DNA of 41,797 bases. Source: Clostridia bacterium (GTDB lineage Bacteria > Bacillota > Clostridia > Christensenellales > Aristaeellaceae). The translations under genes were made by a program, and so were the position numbers. Numbering within the stretch: position 1 is the stretch's first letter; the number at the start of each line of letters is the position of its first letter. The stretch lies in assembly GCA_017448975.1 (NCBI GenBank), contig JAFSKN010000006.1, forward strand, positions 1 to 41,797, in the 5' to 3' direction. Below the pieces are notes generated by a model. That model was given only the letters and a program-made list of their open reading frames with translations, ran no database searches and was not told the DNA's origin. Positions 10,006-31,518 of the stretch are shown here, piece after piece.

Positions 10006-10044
10006 TGTTTCTGTGACCCCCTGATAAATATAGTGGATTTGATT

Positions 10045-10255
10045 GGCTGCGGCTGACCTGGTTTTTGACCCCACACTCGCCGGCTGGAACATTGCTCTGC
10101 GCAATCGCGCCCTCACGCCGTCCTCTCGCGCCCGAAGCGCGGCCGGACTTACTTCTAGACCGCACCATGCTCACCGGAAATTTTTTTCGGCTTACGTGGA
10201 CCGTTTTGCCTGCGACTGGCATCGGCTTGCAACCACAGACCCGATTCAGCCAACC
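10045..10255 (-). ncRNA. Candidate structured RNA (~210 nt) ahead of zinc-ribbon gene
   Basis: Read on the minus strand, the region begins just after a predicted transcription start (about 10256). Its 5' end, GGTTGGCTGA (10255-10246), can pair with TCAGCC-GC-AGCC at its 3' end (10056-10045), so a long-range stem closes the whole segment. Inside there are several local stems: ATCGG/CCGAT (10245-10221), a CGCGC-TTCGG-GCGCG hairpin (10141-10127) flanked by GTCC/GGAC, and ATTGC/GCAAT. A CTGTGG loop sequence could pair with CCACG downstream as a pseudoknot. No convincing reading frame is seen. Size and multi-stem form recall large Firmicutes ncRNAs such as raiA-type RNA, but I cannot assign it. 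It could be a cis leader of the zinc-ribbon gene or an independent RNA. Confidence 0.6.
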
Positions 10256-11696: not shown

Positions 11697-11740
11697 TGTA
11701 ACGGACGCAGGACCAAGCAACATAAAAGACCCCTAACAAT

Positions 11741-11790
11741 GTCATCCTGAGCAACGTGGAGCGAGAGCGGAACGGTAAGCGAAGGATCAT
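11741..11790. repeat. Interspersed repeat of the GTCATCCTG...GCGAAGGA type, forward orientation
   Basis: This segment begins GTCATCCTGAGC and ends GCGAAGGATC. Aligned to the reverse complement of 11629-11676 it is about 70% identical over 48 nt without gaps, so the two form an inverted pair 64 bp apart. I recall similar GTCATCCTGAGC...GAAGGATC units as common intergenic repeats in gut Firmicutes. Confidence 0.7.
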
Positions 11791-11871: not shown

Positions 11872-11935
11872 AAGATGAATAACCTAATCGGAAAGCGCCT
11901 TTCCGGGTACGGCTGAAAGATCTGAGGTGTACGAC

Positions 11936-14900
11936 GTGAACAGTGAAAAGGGATTGCAGACGCATTTATCCCCTGTGGGAGCCTGGGCCTTTTCTGTGGG
12001 CACCTGCATCGGCTGGGGTTCCCTTGTGGTCACCGCCAGCACCTACTTAAAGCAGGCCGGTCCTCTTGGAAGCGCGCTGGGGCTGGCTGTGGGAGCGCTG
12101 GTGATGCTGATGATCGGCCGGTGTTACGCCTACATGATCCAGTGCTACCCGGAAGCGGGCGGCGCGTATGCTTTCACCCGGGAAGTGTTCGGCTACGATC
12201 AGGCTTTTTTGACGGCATGGTTCCTGGCCATGACATATTTTGCCATTCTGTGGGCCAATGCCACATCCCTGCCGCTGTTCAGCAGAATCTTTTTGGGCGG
12301 TATCTTCCGCGTGGGAAAACTGTATACGCTTTTCGGTTATGACGTTTACTTAGGCGAAGCGCTTTTGTCCATGGCGGCCATGGTGCTGGCGGGGCTTCTT
12401 TTGACGCGGTTCAAAAAAGCGGCCAATCTGCTCATGACCGTTCTCGTTTTCCTGTTTATCGCCGGGATCCTGATCGTTTTTATCGGTTCCCTGGCGGGAG
12501 GAGAACGCGGCTTTGAACCGGCTTATGCGCCGGATGCCTCCGCGCTGTCCCAAATCGTGAATATCGCCGTGATTTCGCCCTGGGCGTTTATCGGCTTTGA
12601 GTGCATTTCCCACGGCACCGAGGAATATGCCTTCGACCGGAAGAAGACCCGTAAGGTATTGCTGATTTCCGTCCTGACCACCCTGGCGGTGTATGGGATG
12701 ATCACCCTGCTGTCCGTTACGGCCTATCCGCCCGAATACGAAAACTGGCTGGCCTACATTCATGATCTGGACAGCCTGGAAGGCATCAAAGCGCTGCCCG
12801 CCTTTTATGTGGCGGACCGGTATTTGGGCGGCTTTGGCGTGACGATGCTGATGCTGTCGCTGCTTTCGCTGGTGATCACCAGCCTGATCGGCAATATCAT
12901 CACCTTAAGCCGCCTTGCCTACGCCCTGGCCAGGGATCGCGTTTTGCCTTCGAGATTCGCCAAGGTAAACGACAGGGGCATCCCGGCCAACGCGGTGCTG
13001 CTGGTGGTTGGCTTTTCCTTCTTCGTCCCGCTGGTGGGGCGCACGGCCATCGGCTGGATCGTGGACGTGACCACCATCGGCGCCACGCTGATTTACGGCT
13101 TCGTTTCCGCCGCCGCCGCGCGGAGCGCCAAAAAAGTGGGCGATAAGCGGGAAATGTGGCTTGGACGAATCAGTTTAGCCATCATGGTGGCGTTCGGCCT
13201 GTACTTCCTGCTGCCAAACCTGATAACCAAAGGTTCCCTGATGAAGGAAACTTATTTACTGTTCATCGTGTGGAGCGTGCTGGGCTTTGTGTTTTTCCGG
13301 TGGCTCCTGCGCCGGGACAGGGAAAAGCGCTTCGGCGCTTCCATCGTTGTATGGGTGTCGATCCTGGCCCTGGTATTGCTTGTTTCTCTGATCTGGATGC
13401 GGCAGTCCATGATCGCCTCCAATGAAAAAATGGTGTCGAATATTCAGGCATATTACAGCCAGCCGGATATGGACGGAGCGCGGAGGGAAGACAGCCGCTT
13501 TATCGCCGAGCAGGCAGCCATCGAGCAGGCGGAGGATACGCGCACCGTTTTGCTGGCGACGGGGATGTTTGCTTTTGCCATGGCGATCATGCTCACCAAT
13601 CATTCCTATTTGAACAAGCGCTCCCGGGAAAACGAGCGGCTTGCCATTATCGACCCGCTGACGGGCGTGAAAAACAAGCACGCCTATCTGACCGAGCAAA
13701 GCAAATTGGACGCCGCCATCAGCGAAAAACGCGCCGGTGAGTTCGCCATCGTGGTGTGCGACGTGAACAACCTGAAAAAGGTGAACGATACATTGGGCCA
13801 CAAGGCGGGCGACGAGTATATTCGCGACGCCTGCAGGATGGTGTGCGAAATTTTCCAGCACAGTCCCGTATACCGGGTGGGCGGCGATGAATTCGCTGTG
13901 ATCATACGGGGCCGGGATTATTTGATCCGCAAGGAACTGATGATAGCGCTGCACGAGCGTTCGGTGGATCATACCCGAAACGGCGGCGCGGTGGTTTCCG
14001 GCGGTCTTTCGGAATTTGCTCCCGGCACGGACGCCAACGCGCACAGCATTTTTGAACGGGCCGATCAATTGATGTACGAGGAAAAGAAACTGCTCAAATG
14101 CCTGGATTCCGATGCCCAAGAGGATACGGATGAGGTTGAAGATCGGTTCCTGTCGGAAATCGGTCAGAATGAAGCGATCCTGAACGTAAAGCGGTACGTG
14201 CTGATCGCGGAAGATGAAATCGTCAGCCGCCTGATGTTAGGCAACTCCCTGGAACAAGATTATGAAATCCTCTACGCCGGCGACGGTCTGGAAGCGCTGG
14301 AGCAGATCATGCTGCATAAAAATGACCTGGCCCTGGTGCTGCTCGATCTGCAGATGCCCCGCATGAGCGGGGTGGAGGTGCTTAAAACCCTGAAATCCGA
14401 ACCGGACACCCAGAATATTCCCATTCTTGTGCTGACATCCGATCAGAGCATGGAAGCGGCCTGTTTGCGGATGGGCGCGATGAACTTTATTTCCAAGCCC
14501 TATCCTGACGCGGAAATCATTCTGGCCCGCGTGAACAAATGCATCGAACTTTCGGAAAACCGCAAAATCATTCAGTCCACAGCCCGCGACAGCCTGACCA
14601 ATCTGTTCAATATCGATTACTTCCTGCGCTATGTGAATCTGTTTGATCAGCATTACGGCGATAAGGCCATGGACGCCATCGTGCTGGACGTGAATCATTT
14701 CCACATGATCAACGAACGGCACGGCAGGCAGTACGGCAACACCGTGCTGCGCGGCATCGGCGAAAGGATTCGCGCCATCGCCCGGGATATTGGCGGCGTG
14801 GGCTGCCGCCAGGGGGCCGATACTTTCCTGATTTACTGCCCCCATCAGGAGGACTGCACCGAGATTCTGGAAAAGGCGTCGGCAGGCGCGGGCGACGGCG

Positions 14901-16264
14901 AAAACACACCCAACCGCGTGCGCATGCGCCTTGGGGTGTATGCCTGCGTCGATAAAAAGCTGGATATCGAGCACCGGTTCGACTATGCCAAGGCCGCTGC
15001 CGATTCCGTGAAAAACAGCTATATCAAATCCATCGGCGTGTACGACGCTGAGATGCACCGGGCGGAGGTCATGAAAAACCGGCTGGTGGAGGATTTCAGG
15101 CCTTCCATTGAACAGAACCGCTTCCTGGTCTATTATCAGCCCAAGTTCGATATCCGGCCCGAAAAGCCGCTGCTTTGCAGCGCGGAAGCCTTGGTTCGGT
15201 GGGATCATCCCGAATTTGGCCTCATCGGGCCCGCGGAATTCATTCCGATCTTAGAGGAAAACGGCCTGATCTTTGAGTTGGACAAATACGTTTGGCGCAA
15301 AGTGGCGAACCAGATCCGTGCATGGAAGGAACAGTACGGGTTTTCAGTGCCGGTATCCGTCAATGTTTCCCGCATCGATACGCTCACGCCCGACCTGAAA
15401 GCCATCTTCCTGGAAATCCTCAAATCCTGCCAGCTGTCGGTGGAGGACCTTGCCCTGGAAATCACCGAATCCGCCTATGCCGGGGATTCGGAGCAGGTGA
15501 TTTCCAGCGTGAAGGAGCTGCGGGGAATGGGCTTCCGCATCGAAATGGACGATTTCGGCACCGGATATTCCTCCCTGGGCATGCTCACCACGCTTCCCAT
15601 CGTGGCGGTCAAGCTGGATATGAGCTTTATCCAAAACGCCTTTGGCGAAAAGCGGGATATGCGGCTCATTGAAATGGTGATCGATATAGCGGATTATCTT
15701 CATAATCCCGTCGTCGCCGAGGGAGTTGAAACAGAGGAGCAGTATTTGGCGCTCAAAGCCATGGGCTGCGATTTGGTGCAGGGCTTCTACTTCTCCAAGC
15801 CTGTGCCGCCGGAAGCCTTTGCCCGTTTCCTGATCGAGCGTGCGAAGCAGACGGCCCAAGTGCCCGCGGAAGAGAAAACAGCTGATATGCTCATTCCCAA
15901 GATGCTCACAAGCAATTTTGAACGCATATTCTATATTGATCTGCTGACGGGGCATTACCTGGAGTTCTTTACCGACAGCATGGGCGGATTTGAAATCCAT
16001 CCCGACGGCAAGGATTTCTTCCGGGATATGCAGGAAAAGCTGCTGAAGGACGTGGCGGAAAAGGATAAAACCGCCGTTGCGGACGCCTTGACCCGGGACA
16101 GCCTGAAAAACTGGGCCGTGCGGGAAGAAAAGCTCAGTCTGTCTTTCCGCAGCGTGACCAACGGCCGGGAAAAACGGTACGATCTGCAAACGATCAAAAC
16201 CCGCAGCAGCGGCGCCCGGCATATCGCGATCGGTATTCGCCCCGAGGAACAGAGCGGCGCGTGA
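11936..16264 (+). CDS. APC-family amino acid permease fused to GGDEF-REC-GGDEF(degenerate)-EAL and a PAS-like tail
   Basis: A 1442-residue membrane protein that joins a whole amino-acid transporter to a c-di-GMP output. Residues about 8-460 form an APC permease (TM1 motif GTCIGWGSLVV; loop ARDRVLPSRFAKVNDRGIP). Two further TM helices (about 470-488 and 537-554) flank a ~48-residue loop. GGDEF-1 (about 565-725) has DPLTG (573) and an intact GGDEF (649-653), without an RxxD inhibitory site. REC (about 753-875) has acidic E759/D760 and phospho-acceptor D804. GGDEF-2 is degenerate (GADTF, 960-964). EAL (about 1050-1305) keeps E1084-A-L, VSVNVS, LEITES, DDFGTGYSS (1205-) and AEGVET. A PAS-like tail follows (FYIDLLTGHYLEFF). 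The start is GTG 11936, six bases after GAGGTG. Both cyclase and phosphodiesterase activity look possible. Transport or solute sensing as the input is inferred. Confidence 0.93.
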   Translation: MNSEKGLQTHLSPVGAWAFSVGTCIGWGSLVVTASTYLKQAGPLGSALGLAVGALVMLMIGRCYAYMIQCYPEAGGAYAFTREVFGYDQAFLTAWFLAMTYFAILWANATSLPLFSRIFLGGIFRVGKLYTLFGYDVYLGEALLSMAAMVLAGLLLTRFKKAANLLMTVLVFLFIAGILIVFIGSLAGGERGFEPAYAPDASALSQIVNIAVISPWAFIGFECISHGTEEYAFDRKKTRKVLLISVLTTLAVYGMITLLSVTAYPPEYENWLAYIHDLDSLEGIKALPAFYVADRYLGGFGVTMLMLSLLSLVITSLIGNIITLSRLAYALARDRVLPSRFAKVNDRGIPANAVLLVVGFSFFVPLVGRTAIGWIVDVTTIGATLIYGFVSAAAARSAKKVGDKREMWLGRISLAIMVAFGLYFLLPNLITKGSLMKETYLLFIVWSVLGFVFFRWLLRRDREKRFGASIVVWVSILALVLLVSLIWMRQSMIASNEKMVSNIQAYYSQPDMDGARREDSRFIAEQAAIEQAEDTRTVLLATGMFAFAMAIMLTNHSYLNKRSRENERLAIIDPLTGVKNKHAYLTEQSKLDAAISEKRAGEFAIVVCDVNNLKKVNDTLGHKAGDEYIRDACRMVCEIFQHSPVYRVGGDEFAVIIRGRDYLIRKELMIALHERSVDHTRNGGAVVSGGLSEFAPGTDANAHSIFERADQLMYEEKKLLKCLDSDAQEDTDEVEDRFLSEIGQNEAILNVKRYVLIAEDEIVSRLMLGNSLEQDYEILYAGDGLEALEQIMLHKNDLALVLLDLQMPRMSGVEVLKTLKSEPDTQNIPILVLTSDQSMEAACLRMGAMNFISKPYPDAEIILARVNKCIELSENRKIIQSTARDSLTNLFNIDYFLRYVNLFDQHYGDKAMDAIVLDVNHFHMINERHGRQYGNTVLRGIGERIRAIARDIGGVGCRQGADTFLIYCPHQEDCTEILEKASAGAGDGENTPNRVRMRLGVYACVDKKLDIEHRFDYAKAAADSVKNSYIKSIGVYDAEMHRAEVMKNRLVEDFRPSIEQNRFLVYYQPKFDIRPEKPLLCSAEALVRWDHPEFGLIGPAEFIPILEENGLIFELDKYVWRKVANQIRAWKEQYGFSVPVSVNVSRIDTLTPDLKAIFLEILKSCQLSVEDLALEITESAYAGDSEQVISSVKELRGMGFRIEMDDFGTGYSSLGMLTTLPIVAVKLDMSFIQNAFGEKRDMRLIEMVIDIADYLHNPVVAEGVETEEQYLALKAMGCDLVQGFYFSKPVPPEAFARFLIERAKQTAQVPAEEKTADMLIPKMLTSNFERIFYIDLLTGHYLEFFTDSMGGFEIHPDGKDFFRDMQEKLLKDVAEKDKTAVADALTRDSLKNWAVREEKLSLSFRSVTNGREKRYDLQTIKTRSSGARHIAIGIRPEEQSGA

Positions 16265-17649: not shown

Positions 17650-17700
17650 CCGTGAAACAGGGAAGCTCATGGCCCCTGATTTCACGGTTTTTTCTTTTTT
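17650..17700 (+). terminator. Terminator of the c-di-GMP operon
   Basis: CCGTGAAA (17650-17657) pairs with TTTCACGG (17680-17687), extended inward by CAGG/CCTG, and is followed by TTTTTTCTTTTTT. Confidence 0.88.
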
Positions 17701-17791
17701 TGCTTCTCCCGGAAGAAAACGGGCCGCTGTTTCGTTAAATGGACGAACACAAACGCGTTTTGAAGTACGCACCCGGGGAGGCGAAAGACCA

Positions 17792-20086
17792 TTGAAGCAC
17801 AAAGGCATCAAAGCGGCGGCGATGATCCTGCTGCTGATTCTTCTTCCTGTTCAGGCTTTGGGTTACAGCACATTGAAAAGAGGCATGAAGGGCAATGAAG
17901 TGGCGGCCATGCAGAGGGCGCTGCAATCCTTGGGCTATTCCATTGAAACGGACGGAAAATTCGGCCCCGCCACTGAGGCCGTGGTGAAATCCTTTCAGCA
18001 GCGGTACGGCCTGAAAGCGGACGGCAAGGCGGGGGATAAAACGCTGACTCTGCTGTATACGCTGGTTCCAAACCAAGGGCAGATCGCCAATCCCACCGCC
18101 GCGCCCGCGCCAACGGCTGTTCCGGTTGGAAACGCTATGCAGGCGATGGTGGTCACCACCGGTGGGTCCCTGAACCTGCGCGCGTCCGCCAGCAGCAGCG
18201 GAAAGGTGATTGCTCAAATCCCTTACGGCATGTGGATCACGGTGTATACAAAGGGGCTTCAATGGTCGCTGGTTGCCTATAACGGACAGGTCGGCTATGT
18301 CATGACCCAGTATTTATCCTTCGGCACGGCGGCGATAACACCGGTTCCCACCGCCGTTCCAACGGCGCAGCCCTATATTCCCAGCGGATCGATAGCCTAT
18401 GTATCCACCTCCGGCGGGTCGCTGAATCTGCGCAAAACGCCCTCTTCCTCCGCCAAGGTGCTGCTGAAAATCCCCAACGGTATGGCGGTGCAGCTGGTAA
18501 ACAGGGGCAGCAACTGGTGCGCCGTCACATACCAGGGCACGCCGGGCTACGTGATGACCTCCTTCCTGCGTATTCCCGAATCGGCGGTCACCGCCGTTCC
18601 GACGTTGGTGCCCACTGCCGCGCCGGTCATCGCCGGGCAAACCGCCGTCGTTACCACCACCGGCGGCAGCCTGAACCTGCGGGAATTTGCCAGGAGCAAC
18701 GCAAAAATCCTGCTCACCATCCCCAACGGGACCGCGATTACGGTGACAGAACGGGGCAGCATCTGGTGCACCGCGTATTATCAGGGCTTGCGTGGCTATG
18801 TGATGACCGCCTATCTCCGTTTCCCTTCCGATCCCGCGCCCGCCCAGACGCCGGCACCGACACCCGCGCCCACGGCAGCGCCCGCGTCTCCAAGCGTTTC
18901 TGTGGGTACGGCGCTGGTGACCACCTCCGGCGGCAGCGTGAACATGCGGGCTCAGGCTTCCTCCAGCGCCAAGGTGCTTTTGTCCGTTCCCAACGCGGCC
19001 ATCCTGACCGTTCACGCCAAGGGTACGGATTGGACCGCCGTTACGTATAAAGGAACCTTTGGGTATATCATGACCCAATATATCACCATGCTGAACGCCG
19101 GGGCCGAAGAGGATGGAAACAGCGAGGAGGAAGACCCCTCCGTTTATAAACGAACGCTGAAAAAAGGCATGTCCGGCGAGGACGTGACCTGGCTGCAGAC
19201 CCGGCTGACCGAGCTGGGCTATTCGCTGCAAATCACCCATCTGTACGACGACGCCACGTTCAGCGCCGTGAAGGCCTTCCAGTCGCAGAACGGCCTGGAG
19301 GCCGACGGGCTCGCCGGGCAGCAGACCTTCGTGATGCTGAAAAGCGAAAACGCCCGCCGGGCGCAGGATCAGGCGCTGAACTATGCCACGCTGCGCATTG
19401 ACCAAACCGGCAGCGAGGTCAAACAGCTTCAAACCGATTTGAAAGCCCTGGGCTACGCTGTCACGATCAATGGCACCTACGATACGGACACCCATAACGC
19501 CGTGGTGGCGTTTCAGCAGCGGAACGGGCTGGTGATCAGCGGCATTGCCGACGCGCTGACCCGCCAGGTGATCCACGGGGGAAAGGGGAAACCCTATTCC
19601 ACGCCTGTGGAAACGCTTCCCGCCAACGAAGGCTGGATGGCGAGCCCTTCCGTCAGCCAAATCAAGCTGCTGCATTGGCAGAATGAAATCAAGCCCAACG
19701 TGAAAGCGGGGCAGTCCTTTACTGTGCTGGACCCCAACACCAATTTGAGCTGGAAGCTGGTGTTTTATTCCCTGGGCCGCCACGCGGACAGCCAGCCCGC
19801 CTCCTGGCGTGATACGCAGATCATGAACCGGTCCTTCGGCAACACTTCCTGGACGATCCATCCGGTGTATGTGCTGCTTCCCTCCGGCCAATGGACCATG
19901 GCCACCATGCATAACCGGCCCCATCTGTACGGATCCATCACCAACAACGGCTTTGGCGGCCACCTGTGCGTCCATTTCCTGCGGGATATGGCGGAAGCGC
20001 AAAAAAACGATCCCAAATATGGTGTGAATAACCAGATCACCCTGCGCAGCGCCTGGAAAGCGCTGACCGGGGAAACGGTGGATTGA
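17792..20086 (+). CDS. Secreted cell-wall protein: PG-binding, four SH3b repeats, two PG-binding domains, novel C-terminal domain
   Basis: A 764-residue exported protein. TTG 17792 is chosen because GGGGAG lies nine bases upstream and a signal peptide starts there (KHKGIKAAAMILLLILLPVQALG). Domain order: PG_binding_1 (about 25-90, LKRGMKGNEVAAMQRALQSL); four SH3b domains with Pro/Thr/Ala-rich linkers (about 110-170, 190-250, 275-335 and 365-425), each with GGSLNLR or GGSVNMR and ending GYVMT/GYIMT; two more PG_binding_1 domains (about 445-585); and a 140-residue C-terminal domain with PHLYGSITNNGFGGHLCVHF. SH3b and PG-binding modules bind peptidoglycan outside the cell. The last domain may be the catalytic part, since it has a His-x-Cys-x-His cluster, but I do not recognise it. 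Confidence 0.9.
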   Translation: MKHKGIKAAAMILLLILLPVQALGYSTLKRGMKGNEVAAMQRALQSLGYSIETDGKFGPATEAVVKSFQQRYGLKADGKAGDKTLTLLYTLVPNQGQIANPTAAPAPTAVPVGNAMQAMVVTTGGSLNLRASASSSGKVIAQIPYGMWITVYTKGLQWSLVAYNGQVGYVMTQYLSFGTAAITPVPTAVPTAQPYIPSGSIAYVSTSGGSLNLRKTPSSSAKVLLKIPNGMAVQLVNRGSNWCAVTYQGTPGYVMTSFLRIPESAVTAVPTLVPTAAPVIAGQTAVVTTTGGSLNLREFARSNAKILLTIPNGTAITVTERGSIWCTAYYQGLRGYVMTAYLRFPSDPAPAQTPAPTPAPTAAPASPSVSVGTALVTTSGGSVNMRAQASSSAKVLLSVPNAAILTVHAKGTDWTAVTYKGTFGYIMTQYITMLNAGAEEDGNSEEEDPSVYKRTLKKGMSGEDVTWLQTRLTELGYSLQITHLYDDATFSAVKAFQSQNGLEADGLAGQQTFVMLKSENARRAQDQALNYATLRIDQTGSEVKQLQTDLKALGYAVTINGTYDTDTHNAVVAFQQRNGLVISGIADALTRQVIHGGKGKPYSTPVETLPANEGWMASPSVSQIKLLHWQNEIKPNVKAGQSFTVLDPNTNLSWKLVFYSLGRHADSQPASWRDTQIMNRSFGNTSWTIHPVYVLLPSGQWTMATMHNRPHLYGSITNNGFGGHLCVHFLRDMAEAQKNDPKYGVNNQITLRSAWKALTGETVD

Positions 20087-24859: not shown

Positions 24860-24882
24860 ATTGGTATTCCTATCAAAAACAC

Positions 24883-24910
24883 TTGACAGGCCTTTATTTC
24901 CCTGTATAAT
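24883..24910 (+). promoter_or_regulatory. Strong promoter upstream of the unknown gene at 24981
   Basis: Perfect TTGACA (24883-24888), 16-nt spacer, perfect TATAAT (24905-24910). It places transcription start near 24917, which rules out an ORF start at 24861. Confidence 0.85.
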
Positions 24911-24980
24911 TTGTAGAAGAAGGCTTGCGGAAAAATGTTTTTACTGTCGAAAAAGCCTTTTGAAAGGGGAGAAGCGGGAC

Positions 24981-26021
24981 TTGATCAGAACGGGCGCATG
25001 CCGCGTGGAGCATTGGAGCGATAAGACCATGAGCGTGATGCGGGAGCGGCAGCTGGAAGCGTGCCAGGACAGGCTGTACCGCTGCCCTGCCAACGGCATA
25101 TTTGATGAATTGTGCGAGGACGAAGTGCGGACCCTTTACGCTTTTTCTTATTACGCGAAAGAACTGCGGCGCAAAACGCCCAGCCAGCAGGAACTGCGTG
25201 AAACCGTGCTGCGGAATGTGGCGCTGGAAGCCTGCTATCTGTCGCCGGGCGAAGATAATCTCGTCAAGCGCATCCTGCGGGGCGGGGGAGAAGCGTTTCT
25301 GGACGATTGGGATGAAATCAGCGCCGCAGAAGCCCTGATTTCCCGGCTGTGGTGCTCGCTCCAGATCGAGGACGAGGATTATGCCCGGCTGGTGCTGGCC
25401 CCGGAGCTTGCGGAACCTATCACTCAGGCCATGCTGGCTCCCCAGTATACGCGCATTCGGGAACAGCTTTTCGCCTTTGACGCAACCCTGCACAGCCTGC
25501 TGTATTTATCCGGCTTCCTGCACGCCTCCGTGCCGATGACCCAGTTCCTGCTGCAAAAAAAGAAGGAATCGGACGGGCAAACGTCCCTGATGATCGGCCG
25601 GTATCTGCGGGCCGCTTTCGATTACACCGAAACGGCGGATGGGGAAATGCTGCTGCTGCATCCCGGCCTGGCCGACCCGGAGCACCTTTTATCCAGTCTT
25701 TCCAAACTGCCGCCCATTGAAATTCAATTGACCCGTGAAATGATGTTAGGAGGCATGAACGGCATCCTGGCCGAAGAAGTGGCTTCCTGCGAAGCCATGC
25801 GGGGCGTGTTGGTGGGCGCTGTGCGGCCCGAATACGATGAAGAAGAAGTGCTGGAGGACCTGCGCATGATGGCGAAGCAGGGGGCCAGCATCTTAGAAAT
25901 GCGGGAAGTGCTGGAATCCATGCTGTGCGTGCTGCCCACGCCCCGCATGCTGAACACCCTGCGGCAGCTTCATTTACATACCGTGCGGTGGATGGGCATG
26001 GCCCCGGCGGTCGTCAACTGA
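24981..26021 (+). CDS. Protein of unknown function, 346 aa, helical
   Basis: I do not recognise this family. The product is mostly helical and charged, without a signal peptide, and with one moderately hydrophobic stretch (FDATLHSLLYLSGFLHASV) that is not clearly transmembrane. TTG 24981 is chosen: AGGGGAGA lies nine bases upstream and the predicted transcript starts at about 24917. ATG 25029 (MSVMRERQLEA) is the alternative. The early segment has scattered cysteines (ACRVEHW, LEACQDRLYRCPANG), not a clear zinc motif. The stop overlaps the rluA-family start by one base (TGATG), so the genes are coupled. A link to ribosome or RNA work is suggested only by that neighbour. Confidence 0.75.
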   Translation: MIRTGACRVEHWSDKTMSVMRERQLEACQDRLYRCPANGIFDELCEDEVRTLYAFSYYAKELRRKTPSQQELRETVLRNVALEACYLSPGEDNLVKRILRGGGEAFLDDWDEISAAEALISRLWCSLQIEDEDYARLVLAPELAEPITQAMLAPQYTRIREQLFAFDATLHSLLYLSGFLHASVPMTQFLLQKKKESDGQTSLMIGRYLRAAFDYTETADGEMLLLHPGLADPEHLLSSLSKLPPIEIQLTREMMLGGMNGILAEEVASCEAMRGVLVGAVRPEYDEEEVLEDLRMMAKQGASILEMREVLESMLCVLPTPRMLNTLRQLHLHTVRWMGMAPAVVN

Positions 26022-31176: not shown

Positions 31177-31518
31177 TGACAAAGCGCGGCCTGTAAGCCG
31201 GGTTCTGTTGAAAATGGCCATCTATCTAAACGCGATGTCGCCAGCGCGCTTGAGCGGTACTGCGGGAACAGGACGGGCCGCCCTATGCGTTCCCTACACC
31301 TTGCACCGGATGGGGTTTACATGACGGCACAGTCGCCAGGCCGCCGGTGCGCTCTTACCGCACCTTTCCACCCTTACCGGGGTTTCCCCCGGCGGTATCT
31401 CTCTGTTGCACTCGCCTTGGAGTCGCCTCCACCTGCCGTTAGCAGGCATCCTTGCCCTGCGGTGCCCGGACTTTCCTCACGCCCTTGCGGGCCCGCGGCC
31501 ATTCAGCCGCCTTTGTCA
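31177..31518 (-). ncRNA. rnpB: RNase P RNA, type A
   Basis: This is the catalytic RNA of RNase P, which trims tRNA 5' leaders. The ends TGACAAAG (31518-31511) and CTTTGTCA (31184-31177) form P1, giving about 342 nt. Conserved regions on the minus strand include GAGGAAAGTCCGGGC near the 5' side, GGTGCAAGG and GGTAAACCCC in the middle, and ACAGAACCCGGCTTACAGG near the 3' end. The set resembles the ancestral (type A) form of Escherichia coli rather than Bacillus type B. Mature ends are approximate. Confidence 0.95.

Follow-up and report, generated by a model that had tools for sequence, protein, structure and literature searches.

Gene and domain layout

The window, i.e., the whole 41,797-nucleotide stretch that was analyzed, carries a gene whose product joins an amino acid permease to signaling domains in one chain, in the order APC–linker–GGDEF–REC–GGDEF (degenerate)–EAL–PAS-like tail (Table 1). 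The nearest named relatives of the window bacterium come from ruminant guts. A Pfam search bore out the fusion of an APC permease to GGDEF-REC-GGDEF-EAL that a preliminary description had read from the DNA: it matched AA_permease_2 at residues 14 to 433 (114.7 bits, where the gathering score is 27), GGDEF at 573 to 721 (in two stretches), Response_reg at 758 to 865, and EAL at 1055 to 1292, every call exceeding its curated cut-off. The extent given there (11936..16264) was right at its end, while the frame begins three codons earlier; in the orthologue L089, the N terminus lies at the same Val codon position. The downstream GGDEF gene is paired with the fusion gene in L089 and L090 as well, with gaps of ~20 bases.

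Table 1. Features of the fusion gene and its downstream neighbor, in positions of the window.
Feature	Coordinates	Strand	Remarks
Whole gene	11927..16264	+	single open frame, GTG start, 1445 aa
APC permease fold, residues 7-471	11945..13339	+	12 TM
Discontinuous TM1 segment, residues 28-36 (IGWGSLVVT)	12008..12034	+	model helix break 28-29; low entropy
Discontinuous TM6 segment, residues 216-229 (ISPWAFIGFECISH)	12572..12613	+	model helix break 222-223; low entropy
Linker, residues 472-570	13340..13636	+	TM13, extracytoplasmic hairpin, TM14 running as a single helix into GGDEF1; hydropathy, model
GGDEF1	13643..14089	+	diguanylate cyclase signature intact; without RxxD inhibitory site
Receiver domain	14198..14521	+	phospho-acceptor D807, K857
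GGDEF2	14582..15016	+	degenerate (GADTF)
EAL phosphodiesterase domain	15089..15802	+	signature residues present
C-terminal domain, PAS-like topology	15878..16246	+	model secondary structure; no Pfam match; weak sequence relatives
Downstream neighbor gene, 440 aa	16307..17629	+	very weak Cache-like part (below cut-off) and GGDEF

The frame had been described as uninterrupted, with no assembly join, and this was upheld by comparison with other genomes. Because the source assembly of the window is fragmented (80 contigs), we considered an assembly artefact, or a chance gene fusion within one metagenome-assembled genome, but we give it virtually no credence: full-length orthologues of 86 to 87% identity are present in two further genomes of the genus, strain AC2029 (Lachnospiraceae) carries the same architecture minus the tail on one 3.86-Mb contig, and GGDEF-REC-GGDEF-EAL recurs in 36 of 83 APC-linker proteins surveyed across 80 loci. 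The overall dN/dS was 0.14 to 0.15 and stayed below 0.23 in every domain. Together, the orthologues, the AC2029 contig, and the dN/dS values refute this explanation.

The permease core and its transmembrane linker

The AF2 model (pLDDT 88.9, pTM 0.78) displayed a full APC fold of 12 TM helices, LeuT-type, with TM1 and TM6 broken. Two extra membrane helices beyond this core, as first described, were evident both from the hydropathy profile, which had 14 peaks, and from the model, where helices at residues 472 to 510 and 518 to 574 follow the APC core, the second of which (TM14) leads without a break into GGDEF1. The linker was not found in the 11 free-standing permeases that we compared, and the APC transporters AdiC, GkApcT, ApcT, and the LAT type, at 15 to 19% identity, lack both this linker and the output.

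The mean entropy of the discontinuous TM1 and TM6 segments was 0.41, vs 1.45 over the APC part, and none of 10,000 random TM segment pairs had an entropy as low; the extracytoplasmic loop was variable (2.78). Sensor-specific residue changes include positions in TM1, TM3, TM6, and TM10, and E225 and H229 in TM6 are unlike the free-standing permeases. However, when 111 of 131 APC-linker sequences (copies and short ones removed) were set against the free-standing relatives, G29 and W30 of the TM1 motif proved to be retained in the latter too; pocket conservation, taken by itself, would thus be equally compatible with a transporter. The loss of a coupling Lys was rejected as proof of lost transport: neither the sensors nor any of the 11 free-standing relatives have a Lys aligned with K191 of GkApcT, and its absence is therefore uninformative on the loss of transport. 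When the substrate was sought through curated transporter families, no model came near its cut-off.

Signaling domains and C-terminal tail

The assignment of an intact GGDEF1, a degenerate GADTF second copy, a receiver Asp, and an intact EAL domain stood up to alignment with the relatives. The GG[D/E]EF signature of GGDEF1 was intact in all 75 aligned rows. Its RxxD inhibitory site, which is not common to all cyclases, is absent, with F and S at positions 643 and 646 (S646 in 75 of 75 rows). The receiver residues D807 and K857 were conserved in 33 of 33 rows, as was the EAL signature (the EAL, N, ExxE, DDFGTG, K, EGVE, and Q residues), with T1212 in 31 of the 33. One of 75 APC-GGDEF references was omitted in A2, and two of 34 in A3 (cut at contig ends). 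By sequence and by model, with the structural matches covering residues 158 to 581 of the C-terminal model, the C-terminal half resembles the GGDEF-EAL proteins MorA and DosP and the REC-EAL protein RocR, whose input domains differ.

The PAS-like tail proposed in the preliminary description fared less uniformly. It matched no Pfam family, even at E 5. A moderate-confidence model predicts three strands, then three helices, then three more strands, a topology compatible with a PAS-like fold, and the tail has weak sequence relatives among other signaling proteins. A search of the bacterium's own genome (85% complete) revealed no PilZ protein.

The same module carries different outputs

The survey covered the best 80 of at least 581 relatives, found with a profile (A1) that was made from fusions and thus under-samples free-standing permeases. 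Besides GGDEF-REC-GGDEF-EAL, the same APC-linker module bears five other outputs: GGDEF, PAS-GGDEF, histidine kinases with and without PAS, and HD-GYP. On a tree of the APC parts (one of 138 rows removed at 95% identity), eight labels, namely the six outputs, no output, and free-standing, required at least 18 changes, vs 75 with shuffled labels, which indicates that the outputs were inherited yet repeatedly swapped. The branch dividing the module from the free-standing permeases had an SH-aLRT of only 83, with a long outgroup. With other signaling outputs taking the place of the c-di-GMP enzymes in relatives, the transporter part seems to have evolved into an exchangeable sensor.

Gene neighborhoods and split forms

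The architecture is also found in split form. Among the APC-GGDEF genes examined (37 of 42, as the simple non-overlap gene picker lost the rest), 14 had a separate REC-GGDEF-EAL gene in the same orientation and no more than two genes away, the products of which were 48 to 57% identical to the corresponding half of the window protein; five of the 37 had both a REC-GGDEF-EAL gene and a histidine kinase gene in such positions. In some of these APC-GGDEF/REC-GGDEF-EAL loci, genes for a hybrid kinase and an Hpt protein are present as well. Two families recurred in at least four of the 80 loci: a family of small Hpt genes in six (three of which were run against Pfam, all three being Hpt) and another family in nine, perhaps ORFs antisense to genes. 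Since 14 of 37 APC-GGDEF genes lie close to a separate REC-GGDEF-EAL gene, some together with a hybrid kinase and Hpt, the window protein reads as the fused form of a phosphorelay cassette. These neighborhoods support the earlier suggestion that the receiver takes input from a histidine kinase.

In the window, the 10 neighbors that were scanned are mostly housekeeping and uptake genes (among them RuvABC, QueA, IF-3, PfkB, and an ABC-type uptake pair); they included no kinase gene and offered no ligand clue. No metabolic neighbor family recurred in the 80 loci (ORFs of at least 100 aa).

A putative receptor built on a permease

We consider it likely that the protein serves as a membrane receptor with a repurposed APC permease as its input, and that the chain adjusts local c-di-GMP in response to both a solute and a phosphorelay. 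We read the permease as the ligand-sensing input module; such use of a transporter core to provide the input to a c-di-GMP enzyme, as the preliminary description had it, is well supported by the six outputs on the same module and by the very conserved pocket segments. In the proposed mechanism, a solute would bind the transport pocket between the broken TM1 and TM6 and change the conformation of the APC core; TM13, the extracytoplasmic hairpin, and the long TM14 helix would relay this movement to a GGDEF1 dimer, where it would set c-di-GMP synthesis. The REC-GGDEF(degenerate)-EAL half, a putative former separate response regulator, would degrade c-di-GMP and be controlled by phosphorylation, with a hybrid histidine kinase as the source and an Hpt protein as the probable intermediate. 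We infer dimerization, the direction of the response, and catalysis by both domains along with ligand binding and phosphorylation.

Three other readings were weighed. In a special case of the receptor reading, substrate transport by the APC part would continue, and occupancy or flux in the course of it would be the signal. The conserved pocket, with G29 and W30 common to the free-standing relatives, would agree with such a transceptor, as would CbrA, which binds and transports histidine according to PMC7096432; yet in that same study histidine significantly affected none of the CbrA activities, PMC5764959 presents Ks-Amt5 as a fused transporter domain able to lose transport, and the sensor-specific changes in TM1, TM3, TM6, and TM10 argue in the same direction. 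We regard continued transport as less likely than not. That the APC fold senses a cue other than a pocket solute (membrane potential, pH, or an ion, for example) is improbable: the neighbors yield no ligand clue, and E225 and H229, which are specific to the sensors, might be titratable, but the remainder is much less conserved than the pocket segments. Least probable among these, and in our judgment highly so, is the reverse direction, where an ordinary permease has its transport regulated by the c-di-GMP module. A fusion would by itself leave the direction unspecified, but the same APC-linker also bears histidine kinases and HD-GYP, and the catalytic residues are conserved.

Relation to known transporter-derived sensors

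The preliminary description knew of no system of this kind, which agrees with the literature found for the APC family and is too broad for transporters at large. Among the matches listed in the open-license PMC literature, there was no APC-family sensor, APC-GGDEF fusion, or APC-kinase fusion. Precedents do exist in SLC5-STAC proteins, whose output is a kinase or a GGDEF domain, as described in PMC5715377 and PMC13022988. These sensors (CbrA, CrbS/MxtR, SLC5-STAC-GGDEF) likewise have an N-terminal transporter input, of LeuT fold in CbrA; they combine an SLC5 domain of 13 TM with a four-helix STAC bundle, whereas the window protein has AA_permease_2 with 12 TM and a two-TM hairpin linker. The passages on these sensors name no EAL or HD-GYP output. 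Within the window protein, Pfam at E 0.001 detected no SLC5-type family, AA_permease families being found instead, and no ammonium-transporter domain; a STAC bundle is not present, residues 472 to 574 being modeled as two long helices with membrane-type hydropathy that run straight into GGDEF1. Ks-Amt5 likewise couples a transporter fold to a signaling output and, according to PMC5764959, senses via an altered substrate site with transport lost; it differs in joining an Amt domain to a histidine kinase as an ammonium sensor. The yeast transceptors Gap1 and Ssy1 are described as amino acid permeases that signal, as is proposed for the present protein, and differ in being eukaryotic. Ssy1 is APC-type, and we know of no covalently fused enzyme in either.

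A wider proposal, to which we give slightly less than even weight, is that a large, as yet undescribed class of plug-in bacterial receptors with a dedicated two-TM transducer arose from APC permeases. Its members would sense amino acids or amines via what was once the transport pocket, would act on cyclases, phosphodiesterases, or kinases, and would occur across several gut-bacterial phyla, probably spread by gene transfer. If the receptor reading is true, the APC family, with the fold of AdiC and human LAT1, would join the small set of transporter folds with a known sensor role in bacteria, and the natural output swaps would ease testing how a transport cycle becomes a signal. To our knowledge, c-di-GMP inputs in gut Clostridia are mostly unknown; here, a nutrient solute would be tied directly to c-di-GMP in these bacteria.

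A single-chain fusion of permease and c-di-GMP domains

The preliminary description had read a permease, GGDEF, receiver, GGDEF and EAL in one chain, and the Pfam domain search it proposed matched all of these within one uninterrupted reading frame. Mean hydropathy over 75 aligned rows gave 14 membrane peaks, 12 belonging to the permease and two extra ones forming a linker, whose topology would place its loop outside and the GGDEF inside. The motifs were likewise as described: an intact cyclase (R-x-GGDEF in GGDEF1 in all 75 rows), receiver residues D807 and K857 and the EAL signature residues (each in 33/33 rows), and a degenerate GGDEF2, GADTF in the window protein, with its D and F in all 33 rows and its first G in 25. 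The RxxD inhibitory site was absent from GGDEF1 across the 75-row alignment.

Full-length orthologues with 86-87% identity occur in two genomes of the same genus (G008 and G024), dN/dS against them is 0.14-0.15 overall (0.06-0.22 per domain), and Lachnospiraceae bacterium AC2029, a cultured strain to judge by its title, encodes a tailless 1326-aa version of this architecture on a contig of 3.86 Mb. Together these rule out an artefactual fusion and bear out the earlier view that the frame contains no assembly join. The window's own genome (85% complete) encodes three APC fusions plus a single free-standing permease, along with 41 GGDEF and 14 EAL matches; a search of this 85% complete assembly for PilZ gave no match.

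Positions of the fusion gene, its domains and further features in the window and in related loci
Feature	Position	Remarks
Fusion gene	window 11927-16264 (+)	1445 codons
AA_permease_2	residues 14-433	Pfam, above curated cut-off
Extra membrane peaks	residues 473-491 and 538-556	separated by a 46-residue loop
GGDEF	residues 573-721 and a second stretch	Pfam, above curated cut-off
Response_reg	residues 758-865	Pfam, above curated cut-off
EAL	residues 1055-1292	Pfam, above curated cut-off
TGTCATCCTGAGC	window 11740-11752	intergenic, ahead of the fusion gene; single copy in window; presumably a common intergenic repeat of gut genomes
raiA RNA motif	window 10044-10252 (-)	180.9 bits; flanked by IF-3 and PfkB genes
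RNase P class A RNA (Bacterial)	window 31177-31514 (-)
805-aa protein	window 17669-20086 (+)	follows the two c-di-GMP genes; three peptidoglycan-binding and four SH3 stretches
386-aa ORF	window 24861-26018 (+)	behind DNA ligase gene; no Pfam match at E 0.001
Hpt-family gene	L122 310-651	beside an APC-sensor cluster or within it
REC-GGDEF-EAL protein	L048 5279-10147 (+)	1623 aa; then six PAS-like repeats and GGDEF
Outputless APC protein	L180 2341-4083 (-)	example of L180-L187
Extended APC frame	L197 80-5746 (-)	1889 aa

Outputs are exchanged on a common APC-linker module

Scanning named genomes found at least 581 relatives, of which the best 80 loci were retained. In 79 of these 80 a protein extends to the end of the linker profile, giving 83 such proteins. 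GGDEF alone is the C-terminal output in 42; the GGDEF-REC-GGDEF-EAL form, for which a survey of other genomes had been suggested, recurs with or without the tail in 36 (three truncated by contig ends, L103 split close to the permease end, L142 short at its N-terminus); and the others carry HD-GYP (2), kinase-REC (2) or kinase-REC-REC (1). HD_5 domains were also found in L203 and L204, and all four HD_5 proteins have the HD and GYP motifs. PAS-GGDEF and PAS-kinase-REC-REC fusions were further forms seen within the genus and family. The first ~496 residues of the L197 frame, ahead of its APC core, match no Pfam family and may simply be upstream open frame.

In a rapidly built tree from 137 APC domains, the fused and eight outputless forms fell into one group at a moderate SH-aLRT of 83, with the outgroup (GkApcT, a known APC transporter, and 11 free-standing relatives) on a long branch. 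Placing eight labels (six outputs, none, free-standing) on this tree required at least 18 changes versus a mean of 75 when shuffled; the GGDEF-REC-GGDEF-EAL form required 7, of which 5 were forced by starred branches. An early 12-row branch holds five kinases and seven outputless APC proteins with two extra TM helices. The outputless proteins L180-L187 (~560-600 aa, APC core plus two extra TM helices) branch inside the same group as the fused forms and are perhaps partner subunits.

Members of this protein family cluster in the window's own taxonomic family and are sparse outside it. With a threshold of E 1e-60, the APC-linker profile matched 53 of 250 same-family genomes, partly through free-standing permeases or fragments, and 43 of the 250 had a matching open frame of at least 700 aa. 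At E 1e-100, frames of at least 700 aa were found in 6/396 order, 7/391 class and 4/398 phylum sample genomes, each count including the window's own genome. Among the best 80 of at least 581 loci, 69 are labelled Bacillota, 8 Actinomycetota and one each Thermodesulfobacteriota, Spirochaetota and Chloroflexota; 77 titles include one of the words MAG, uncultured and isolate, and in 26 there is mention of goat, sheep, deer, yak, buffalo or rumen. Phylum labels resting on one MAG may be binning errors, and where the module appears in MAGs assigned to Desulfovibrio, Treponema and Chloroflexi (L146, L155, L167), either gene transfer or binning error would account for it.

The transport pocket as candidate sensing site

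Mean entropy over 111 sequences was 0.41 for TM1 28-36 plus TM6 216-229, compared with 1.45 for the APC part and 2.78 for the outer loop. None of 10000 random pairs of TM segments from these sequences was as conserved, the two segments having been picked after inspection of the alignment, guided by the LeuT fold with its broken TM1 and TM6. G29 and W30 of the TM1 segment are also retained by the free-standing relatives. Twenty-one columns are invariant in the sensors and different in all 11 free-standing relatives, several of them in pocket helices: T36 and Y40 (TM1), W109 and A110 (TM3), E225 and H229 (TM6), T382 and T383 (TM10); W476 lies in the linker. The conserved segments, the variable loop and the sensor-specific columns thus point to the transport pocket, rather than the outer loop, as the putative sensing site. 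The position of K191, the proton-coupling Lys of GkApcT, is F in 98/111 sensors and L in 11/11 free-standing relatives; with the Lys missing from both, it does not discriminate between them.

A probable phosphorelay cassette in related genomes

In the best 80 of at least 581 loci, 37 APC-GGDEF genes were examined; for 14 of them a REC-GGDEF-EAL gene 48-57% identical to the second half of the window protein lies on the same strand at most two genes away, and in five of these 14 cases a histidine-kinase gene is found at that distance too. Genes of 110-115 aa belonging to a single family occur in 6 of the 80 loci, and all three tested were Hpt by Pfam; such small genes lie within or beside the APC-sensor clusters of L121, L122, L123, L099, L164 and L165, pointing to a phosphorelay. 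L122 has the order Hpt, two-receiver hybrid kinase, APC-GGDEF, REC-GGDEF-EAL, with short gaps; in L140, APC-kinase, full form and APC-GGDEF are consecutive (gaps ~40 bases); and in L040, L052 and L058 a REC-GGDEF-EAL gene lies 419-546 bases from the APC-kinase gene (ORFs of at least 300 aa listed). Because of these split neighborhoods, the window protein reads as a putative fused form of a kinase/APC-cyclase/REC-EAL cassette. The suggested histidine-kinase input to the receiver therefore gains from the kinase and Hpt neighbors in relatives, but no kinase gene was present among the window neighbors scanned.

Relation to transporter-derived sensors and a proposed mechanism

In the literature, SLC5-STAC sensors have kinase or GGDEF outputs (PMC5715377), CbrA joins a kinase to a histidine transporter (PMC7096432; PMC13022988), Ks-Amt5 has lost transport (PMC5764959), SSS-domain sensors have been reviewed (PMC7918813) and a relation between S-components and 5TMR is treated (PMC11109136). 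The literature searched, these passages included, contained no APC-family fusion. The preliminary description knew of no described system of this kind, which agrees with that search for the APC family, but SLC5-STAC and Ks-Amt5 are precedents; similarly, a transporter core as the input of a c-di-GMP enzyme is well supported by the swapped outputs and conserved pocket, but is already precedented in SLC5-STAC-GGDEF. The window protein lies outside both the SLC5/STAC and Amt families, yet as far as its anatomy shows it would work similarly to SLC5-STAC, CbrA and Ks-Amt5. Beyond anatomy, conservation and gene order, we infer a mechanism in which a ligand would occupy the APC pocket and the core would move, this movement would pass via TM13, the hairpin and TM14 to the GGDEF1 dimer, and phosphorylation of the receiver would control the EAL half.
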